Below, in pieces: positions 28,549-30,776 of a DNA stretch of 64,000 nucleotides (position 1 is its first letter; each line of letters starts with the position of its first letter). The notes below the pieces were generated by a model. That model saw nothing but the letters and a program-made list of their open reading frames with translations. It did no database searches and was not told where the DNA came from. The position numbers and the translations under genes were made by a program. Origin of the DNA: Candidatus Roizmanbacteria bacterium (GTDB lineage Bacteria > Patescibacteriota > Microgenomatia > UBA1406 > GWC2-37-13); NCBI GenBank assembly GCA_016215445.1, contig JACRJL010000003.1:528924-592923 (forward strand), in the 5' to 3' direction.

Positions 28549-28893
28549 TTATTTCAACTTAATGTGGTTTCTTATAAACCATTGTTTTTCTATCGGTAAA
28601 AGTTGATCGTGTATTACTGGTTTAGATTCGACCGTTGTGGGTTCCAAAATAGGTTCTTTTTTAGGGATTAAAGATGCGCAGTGCTGTTCTAATGCCTGAC
28701 ACGGACCATAATGTTTGAATAAGCCGAACAGTCCCTTATGTAGTAATGCGATGCAAACAAATCTTTTTGTTCCTCCTTCGTCTAATTCGATCTCGTAAGC
28801 GCAATTTTGTGAACGTGGTTCACTTGAAGAACTGGTAAATATAGAATAGGTAGCTTTTAAACTAAACGAGGGCGAGATTCTGTTTTCACCCAT
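28549..28893 (-). CDS. Hypothetical protein
   Basis: 114-aa ORF in an otherwise unassigned interval. Confidence 0.5.
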   Translation of the reverse strand: MGENRISPSFSLKATYSIFTSSSSEPRSQNCAYEIELDEGGTKRFVCIALLHKGLFGLFKHYGPCQALEQHCASLIPKKEPILEPTTVESKPVIHDQLLPIEKQWFIRNHIKLK

Positions 28894-28938
28894 TATTGTA
28901 AATAATATATAAAATTGCTAAAATAGACTGTAAGAAAT

Positions 28939-28953
28939 AAGGAGTCATAGCTC
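28939..28953 (+). repeat. Partial 5' copy of tRNA-Asp
   Basis: AAGGAGTCATAGCTC, identical to 29261-29275 (2 nt upstream plus tRNA nt 1-13). Confidence 0.9.
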
Positions 28954-29016
28954 CCGTCGTCGAGAGTTCGTCACGACTGACGGGCTCGCCAGTCCTACTT
29001 TAGTTGGACGGCGAGC
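28953..29016 (+). other. Tandem twin hairpins
   Basis: CCCGTC-GTCG/CGAC-T-GACGGG (28953-28984) and GCTCGCC-A-GTCC/GGAC-GGCGAGC (28984-29016). Confidence 0.85.
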
Positions 29017-29024
29017 AATGTAAT

Positions 29025-29261
29025 ATGTTTTATACTTATGTTTTAAAAAGCATAAAAGATGATAAACTTTACGTTGGGTCGACTAGCGATTTGAAAACTA
29101 GGATAAAGTTTCATGACCAAGGAAGAGTTACAGCAACAAAAGGTAGGAGACCGCTGAAGCTTATCTATTATGAGGCATGTTTAACTAAAGATAAAGCAGA
29201 GGAAAGAGAAAGATATTTTAAAACGGGTTTTGGTAGGGGTTTCTTGAAAAATAGGATATAA
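29025..29261 (+). CDS. GIY-YIG nuclease domain protein
   Basis: MFYTYVLKSIKDDKLYVGSTSDLKTRIKFHDQGRVTATKGRRPLKLIYYEACLTKDKAEERERYFKTGFGRGFLKNRI. Confidence 0.9.
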   Translation: MFYTYVLKSIKDDKLYVGSTSDLKTRIKFHDQGRVTATKGRRPLKLIYYEACLTKDKAEERERYFKTGFGRGFLKNRI

Positions 29262-29262
29262 A

Positions 29263-29336
29263 GGAGTCATAGCTCAATTGGCTAGAGCACTTCCCTGTCA
29301 CGGAAGGGGTTGGGGGTTCGAGTCCCCTTGGCTCCG
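29263..29336 (+). tRNA. tRNA-Asp (GTC)
   Basis: Acceptor GGAGTCA/TGGCTCC; anticodon loop CTGTCAC; T loop TTCGAGT. Confidence 0.95.
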
Positions 29337-29400
29337 CAAATTATTCATGAAACTTCTAAAATCGATAGGATAAAATATTTTTTTGAGCAAAATAAGAACA

Positions 29401-30776
29401 TGACTAAATTAGTATCCACGAATCCTGCAGAAAATTATTCAATAGTTGGGGAAGTTGATATATCAACTGATAAAGAAATTGCCGATAAAGTCATGCAGGC
29501 AAATCAAGCTAAGACATTTTGGAAAGAACTAGGAGTTAAAGGTCGCATAGAACTGTTAGAACCGATTCGTGATGAATTTAAGGATCGCACCGAAGAAATC
29601 GCCAATCTTATCAGTAAAGAAACAGGGAAAGTGATTTCTGAGAGTAAATCGGAAGTAGTAAGATATATAGAAGAACTAACATGGTTTTTGGATAACGGAC
29701 CAAGAGCTCTGAAGGATACTGTTACACTTGACGATGAAACATCCTTTCACCGTATAGTATACGAACCTTACGGAGTTGCCGCTAGCATCGCCCCTTGGAA
29801 TTTTCCTTTTGGAATGTCAATTTGGGGAATTTTCCCGAATTTAATTGCTGGAAACCCAGTAGTATTTAAAATTTCCAAAGAATGCGTGCTTGTAGGAAAA
29901 TTAATAGAAAAAATAATACTCAACCATAGTTTACCCACGGGTGTTTTTTCTGAGGTTTATGGCGCAGGAGATGTTGGAAAAAAATTGACTGAAAGTGACA
30001 TCGATCTTATTTGGTTTACAGGAAGTACCGAAGTTGGTAAATCACTATATAAAACCGCAGCGGATAAATTTATAAAAGTTGTGCTTGAAATGGGCGGGTC
30101 TAACCCATGTGTAGTTTTTGACGATATTGATATTGAAAAAGCTGCGCTCGTAATATTCGGAGGCCGTTTCAGACATTGCGGACAAGTATGTAGTGCATTA
30201 AAGCGCTTGATCGTACACGAAAAGGTTGTAGATAAACTAACACTGGCTCTCAGGAAAATAGTAGAAAGACAAAAAGTCGGAAATCCATTAGATACCAAAT
30301 CAGACTTAGGTAGTCTGATAAACAAACATCAACAAATAGTTATAAAAAGCCAGTTGCAGGATGCTTTGGATAAAGGTGCTGAAATAGTTGCTCAAACCAA
30401 GTTATCAAAGGATTTAAAAGGGGCATTTTTTCCTCCAACTTTATTGTCACATATTACTCCTGATATGAAAGTATGGCATGAAGAAGTTTTCGGTCCTATT
30501 TTCCCCATAATAACCTTTAAAACTGAAAGGGAAGCAATAGATTTAGCCAATGATACAGATTATGGTTTAGGAGCAAGAGTAATGTCGGAAGATATCAAAA
30601 GGGCTGAACGGGTCGCTTCAAAAATAGATGCCGGATCAATAACTCTCAATTATGAAGCTAACTTTTTAGCATGCGATCCATTTGGTGGATATAAAAACTC
30701 AGGAATCGGTCGTGAACGAGGAATTCACGGTTTGCAGGAACTTTGCCAGGTAAAAGTGATTCAAAACTCAAAATAA
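29401..30776 (+). CDS. Aldehyde dehydrogenase (succinate-semialdehyde dehydrogenase-like)
   Basis: IAPWNFPFGMSIWGIFPNLIAGNPVVFK, FTGSTEVGKSLYK, EMGGSNPCVVFDD, RHCGQVCSALKR. Start set at MTKLVSTNPAE; the ORF-track start lies inside the tRNA. Confidence 0.9.

Follow-up and report, generated by a model that had tools for sequence, protein, structure and literature searches.

The tRNA-Asp gene of this Candidatus Roizmanbacteria genome raises the question of why its 5′ end occurs twice, with hairpins and a small nuclease gene between the copies. The window, the whole 64,000-nucleotide stretch of DNA that was analysed, sits in a 604-kb contig. The 15-nt sequence AAGGAGTCATAGCTC, comprising two A residues and nucleotides (nt) 1-13 of tRNA-Asp, occurs at 28939-28953 and at 29261-29275 of the window. 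An earlier note had read this pair as the trace of a mobile element; both of its positions were confirmed, and the second copy opens the intact tRNA-Asp (29263-29337). No other direct repeats of at least 12 nt were found in 28700-30000. The locus contains the following features.

28893-28940, + strand: native tRNA-Asp promoter and leader region, now 5′ of the left fragment; near-identical to the region upstream of tRNA-Asp in genome G017.
28941-28953, + strand: left copy, tRNA-Asp nt 1-13; exact repeat of 29263-29275, present as a single copy in the empty sites.
28954-28983, + strand: hairpin 1, with one bulged base and one A-A mismatch; from folding, recurrence beside GIY-YIG genes of one clade at further tRNAs, and pair counts.
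28984-29016, + strand: hairpin 2, with one bulged A; from folding and pair counts.
29017-29019, + strand: resumed tRNA-Asp nt 14-16 (AAT); from direct reading.
29025-29261, + strand: GIY-YIG nuclease gene, 78 aa; PF01541, E 3e-17, every strongly conserved residue present.
29263-29337, + strand: intact tRNA-Asp(GTC); from ARAGORN and Rfam.
28954-29275 (equivalently 28941-29262), + strand: net insert of 322 bp, measured against the empty sites of G017 and G004.

The insertion is seen by comparison with relatives. Genomes G017 and G004, of the same genus, contain an identical tRNA-Asp that is uninterrupted, without the hairpins and without the GIY-YIG gene. The 70 bases 5′ of the G017 tRNA-Asp align with the stretch of the window that precedes the 5′ fragment (score 92 versus 35 ± 4.5 for shuffles), whereas they show no match to the sequence upstream of the intact tRNA-Asp (score 24). 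As the promoter region of G017 corresponds to the upstream of the left fragment only, the net insertion is 322 bp, with the GIY-YIG gene as its sole gene. A 15-nt repeat older than the insertion was also looked for, and no empty site has one. The proposal that an element entered near tRNA nt 13 and restored the tRNA by duplicating its 5′ part is thus supported by the empty sites of G017 and G004, together with recurrence in other tRNAs. In this genome tRNA-Phe and tRNA-Lys are occupied as well; identical, empty versions of these two genes are found in G003 and G004, respectively. No second tRNA-Asp was found by a search of the genome, which is 97% complete, and the intact copy is therefore presumably functional.

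The two adjacent bulged hairpins described previously were borne out by folding, with the boundaries refined to 28954-28983 and 28984-29016. The 96-nt hairpin region folds at -38.2 kcal/mol versus -23.95 ± 3.31 for shuffles (z -4.3), and is more stable than 200 of 200 shuffled sequences. Across four elements, a small sample, 5 of 22 pairs in the twin hairpin changed on both sides and 97.7% of the cells pair, far above slid controls; hairpin 2 accounts for 4 changes in its 11 pairs. Hairpin 1 occurs only once in the genome, with no further copy found at up to 3 mismatches. The AAT resumption at 29017-29019 is by itself too short for judgement; other twin-hairpin elements resume in the same manner, with longer segments at further loci.

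The same twin hairpin is found at tRNAs of other isotypes: at tRNA-Val in loci L107 and L110, tRNA-His in L108 and tRNA-Lys in L219. L107 is from another Candidatus Roizmanbacteria sequence and encodes a protein 82% identical to that of the window. At the Val, His and Lys loci the twin hairpin begins exactly after nt 13 of the respective tRNA. Among 373 genomes of the class there were three occurrences, namely the window, L219 and L218, the last having the same sequence as L110. In the protein tree, the GIY-YIG proteins accompanied by the twin hairpin form one supported clade across Asp, Val and His. The idea that the hairpins mark the left end of the element therefore holds, as they accompany the gene and invariably follow nt 13. 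At each isotype the two tRNA-end copies match each other, meaning that it is the 5′ end of the local tRNA which is doubled. From the sequences, as the duplicated end is always local, it appears to be made at insertion and not carried. A carried foreign tRNA end is disfavoured, both copies being identical at each isotype.

The GIY-YIG protein of roughly 78 aa proposed earlier was verified as the product of the open reading frame at 29025-29261, the stop codon of which ends one base ahead of tRNA-Asp nt 1. The conserved residues Y5, Y16, G18, R26, H30, E62 and K66 are present. An AlphaFold model predicts a single compact domain (pLDDT 95.8), and in this model the protein consists of the catalytic domain alone, lacking a separate DNA-binding region of the I-TevI type. 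The nearest solved folds are the UPF0213 protein BH0048 and Slx1, with I-TevI more distant. Slx1 processes branched DNA, has the partner Slx4 and contains further domains. The modelled similarity to Slx1 is a lead towards structure-directed cutting, short of proof. To our knowledge, no mobile context has been described for UPF0213 proteins or Slx1.

The association with tRNA genes extends well beyond the window. The 0.94-Mb genome contains seven GIY-YIG domains, one of which lies in a 431-aa open frame and is taken to be UvrC. Five of the remaining six small genes are within 150 bp of a same-strand tRNA, where random placement gave a mean of 0.04 and a maximum of two in 200,000 trials. Matches to GIY-YIG were present in 56 of the 57 genomes searched, which are mostly metagenome assemblies (G026 and G053 are single contigs). 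Loci pooled from relatives and from named genome contigs yielded 166 distinct GIY-YIG units. A tRNA or tmRNA lies within 150 bp of 71 of these, on the same strand in 70 of the 71 and downstream in 48. The 250 bases upstream of each gene were searched for tRNA copies, with tRNAs swapped among loci as the control. Exact copies of 9 nt or longer, starting from tRNA nt 1-2, were present in 25 of the 48 downstream units (0.09% with swapped tRNAs), and copies of at least 15 nt in 17 of the 48 (0.3% with swapped tRNAs). The arrangement of 5′ fragment, hairpins, GIY-YIG gene and tRNA is consequently genuine and far above chance. In the other 23 downstream units no 5′ copy from nt 1 was detected, reflecting decay or another route.

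The duplication follows a consistent rule. The copy starts at tRNA nt 1, with identity extending no more than 2 bases further upstream in 20 of 25 cases. A hairpin sits cleanly within the copy, mostly in the D-arm, with break points at 15/16, 20/21, 21/22, 13/14, 12/13 and others. Resumed tRNA segments of at least 7 nt follow in 72% of cases, compared with 7% in shuffles. A mirror form also exists in which the tRNA is upstream. Several such loci copy the 3′ part of the tRNA, ending at its 3′ end, and in L004 (tRNA-Phe) and L006 (tRNA-Lys) the 3′ copy has a hairpin inside. The remark that this element duplicates the 5′ end, where classical integrases usually duplicate the 3′ end, is correct for the window and needs widening to include this sister arrangement. 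By sequence comparison, then, the insertion, the duplication, the strand rule and the joint movement of hairpins and gene into several isotypes are demonstrated.

Several other arrangements were recorded around tRNA genes. In L039, L109 and L153 a single tRNA lies between two GIY-YIG genes; in L039 the 5′ part of the tRNA is copied on one flank and the 3′ part on the opposite flank. L037 (G023 contig 2, 1-6500) contains twelve identical 357-bp tandem units reaching the contig end, each consisting of a tRNA-Ser 5′ copy with a hairpin and a GIY-YIG gene; L124 has a tRNA-Lys repeat resembling this array. These arrays are either real amplification or an assembly loop. At approximately 1400-1640 of L103, hairpin-bearing tRNA-like copies lie on both sides of tRNA-Val, and no GIY-YIG gene was found in the locus. 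Palindromes (often TTCG) begin at a tRNA or tmRNA 3′ end, or close to it, in L005, L008, L035, L063, L067, L071, L079, L096 and L100; a GIY-YIG gene lies beyond the palindrome in some of these and none in others.

The position of the gene suggests how it may be expressed. A -10-like TAAAAT, by consensus match only, lies at 28919-28924, upstream of the left copy. Of 25 loci, 20 have a TATAAT-like box ahead of the left copy and 5 have one ahead of the intact tRNA, at a score that 36% of shuffles reach. The GIY-YIG gene ends at -21 to +30 bases from tRNA nt 1 in 43 of 48 downstream units, and in about nine of the 48 its stop codon coincides with tRNA nt 8-10, the conserved TAG. With the nuclease gene placed between the promoter and the intact tRNA and reading in the same direction, a single transcript from the tRNA promoter probably yields both nuclease and tRNA.

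Relatives away from tRNAs have ends of a different kind. Inverted repeats of at least 10 nt flank 38 of 92 non-tRNA units versus 2 of 92 in a reversed control, and only 3 of 69 tRNA-linked units. The repeats are of two types, ACCCTGTTAAATAA/TTATTTAACAGGGT or ATCCCGTTAGAGAT with its complement; flanks of the ACCCTGTTAAATAA or ATCCCGTTAGAGAT type are seen in L139, L140, L144, L160, L174, L183 and others. From these repeats, the wider GIY-YIG family may travel like an insertion sequence. A search of 20 non-tRNA loci with Rfam returned no match. Homologous genes without tRNA fragments and hairpins had been named by the earlier note as a finding that would speak against its reading. The near relatives of the window gene retain both; many of the distant ones lack tRNAs, though a good part of these have inverted-repeat ends instead. 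In L132, L152, L173 and L186, a 23S-IVP-like gene, of the four-helix bundle type, is interrupted by GIY-YIG units of 277-286 bp, all close to the same conserved motif. A 23S_rRNA_IVP family match is located beyond the right repeat in L173 and L186, and joining the flanks of the four insertions gives a long open frame in only two. In L125, L156 and L178 the GIY-YIG gene has one arm of a REP-like palindrome on each side, which looks as though the common palindromes were the element without its gene. This suggests a wider GIY-YIG mobile family, the ends of which may have spawned palindromic repeats.

Known systems were compared with the window element. A group I or II intron with an endonuclease gene was rejected, as no intron RNA was found around the gene and Rfam identified only tRNAs in the window. 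The insert has no integrase gene, and the window duplicates the 5′ end, the 3′ end being copied only in the mirror form elsewhere, which speaks against a tyrosine-integrase element. It also fails the test for an inverted-repeat insertion sequence, as no repeat of at least 10 nt flanks the window gene. A phage or plasmid vector was likewise set aside, there being only one weak phage record, two plasmids and one viral contig. RAYT transposases are Y1 HUH enzymes. The REP/REPIN and RAYT system is similar in combining short palindromes, single or paired, with one small nuclease gene; it was rejected because the linked gene here encodes a GIY-YIG protein, not a Y1 HUH transposase, and the palindrome is single-copy in the genome. 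Fungal mitochondrial endonuclease elements, such as those of Allomyces atp6, bring a replacement gene end, and double-hairpin elements are also known. The Allomyces elements are alike in that an endonuclease gene is inserted in a gene and the element supplies the lost end; they differ in occupying mitochondrial protein genes and supplying a foreign end, where the window element has the local tRNA's own end.

The nearest working analogue is SegB, one of the free-standing GIY-YIG homing endonucleases of T-even phages, which cuts tRNA genes and drives tandem amplification of the locus (PMC13096335). Both are GIY-YIG nucleases encoded outside introns, beside tRNA genes. SegB differs in being a phage gene located between tRNAs, and the available part of that source reports no hairpins and no regenerating duplication of a tRNA end (PMC13096335). 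In CPR bacteria, rRNA genes contain inserts with GIY-YIG that correspond to no intron of group I or group II (PMC11270868). These resemble the present element in bacterial group and in placing GIY-YIG in structured RNA genes; they differ in having been described only in rRNA genes, and the main text of that paper refers to neither tRNA nor hairpins (PMC11270868). Beyond SegB and the CPR rRNA inserts, no published description of a tRNA-linked GIY-YIG element was found in a partial coverage of the literature. Among the hallmarks of homing endonucleases, a catalytic domain with conserved residues and both occupied and unoccupied alleles are present; a separate DNA-binding region is not. As the element fails the intron, integrase, insertion sequence and RAYT tests and lacks this region, it is described by analogy and filed in none of these classes.

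The most probable account of the locus is a minimal GIY-YIG mobile element which enters the D-arm, restores the tRNA and relies on the tRNA promoter for its transcription. Such an element of approximately 320 bp would comprise the hairpin pair, the nuclease gene as its only gene, and a restored 5′ end of the tRNA. Entry would occur in the D-arm, here between tRNA-Asp nt 13 and 14, at the widely shared motif TAGCTC^A. The part of the local tRNA between its mature 5′ terminus and the insertion point would be duplicated, leaving a complete tRNA downstream of the element, and the left copy, interrupted by the hairpins, would retain the tRNA promoter. The tRNA would be released from the joint transcript by RNase P cleavage. 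The nuclease is the putative mobiliser; it may cut unoccupied tRNA genes in the D-arm, and perhaps also at the acceptor-stem base, with the subsequent repair installing the element. The hairpins could be the recognised end or could protect the element.

Strict intronless homing among alleles of one tRNA gene, with jumps to other tRNAs as rare accidents, is an improbable rival. By this route an element-free allele would be cut and homologous recombination would copy in the element with its replacement tRNA end, in the manner of SegB. Occupied and empty alleles do coexist in the genus, and SegB is a GIY-YIG homing endonuclease that cuts within tRNA genes (PMC13096335). However, closely related units are located at different isotypes, both copies of the tRNA end are local, although a replacement end brought along in a jump would be foreign, and the protein has no separate DNA-binding domain. 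There is very little probability that the locus is a degenerate remnant of a tyrosine-integrase tRNA element or of REP-type repeats, with GIY-YIG as a passenger. Although tRNA genes are favourite integrase targets and the hairpins of other subfamilies resemble REP repeats, the 322-bp unit has one gene only and repeats the 5′ rather than the 3′ end of the tRNA. The same complete unit also recurs in other genomes, and its hairpin is single-copy in this one.

An equally slight chance is given to a non-mobile UPF0213-like host gene placed beside tRNAs for co-transcription, with tandem tRNA duplication as a side effect. The UPF0213 protein BH0048 is the nearest solved relative and the same-strand rule is strict, yet such a gene would be expected to keep to one orthologous tRNA in neighbouring species, and the opposite is seen. 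Empty sites exist in the genus, near-identical units occur at different tRNAs, hairpins sit at fixed tRNA positions, and other members have inverted-repeat flanks. A broader and more speculative reading, which is possible though doubtful, is a separate transposon-like class. Its sole protein would be a structure-selective GIY-YIG nuclease of 80 residues, inserting at hairpins and tRNA cloverleaf junctions, and the REP-like palindromes of Patescibacteria would be its gene-less derivatives. Insertion at such sites would explain why duplications start with the mature 5′ end or run no further than the 3′ end.

Taken as a minimal mobile element, the locus apparently represents a widespread and undescribed kind of mobile DNA, present, to judge from the genomes compared, in many different tRNA genes of a large group of very small bacteria. 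It would rank among the smallest known autonomous mobile DNAs, and would live within an essential single-copy tRNA gene, sparing it while exploiting its promoter. Such an element could account for the abundance of small GIY-YIG genes next to Patescibacteria tRNAs. It also makes two ideas testable, namely that mobility can be driven by nothing more than a GIY-YIG domain, and that palindromic repeats descend from such elements.
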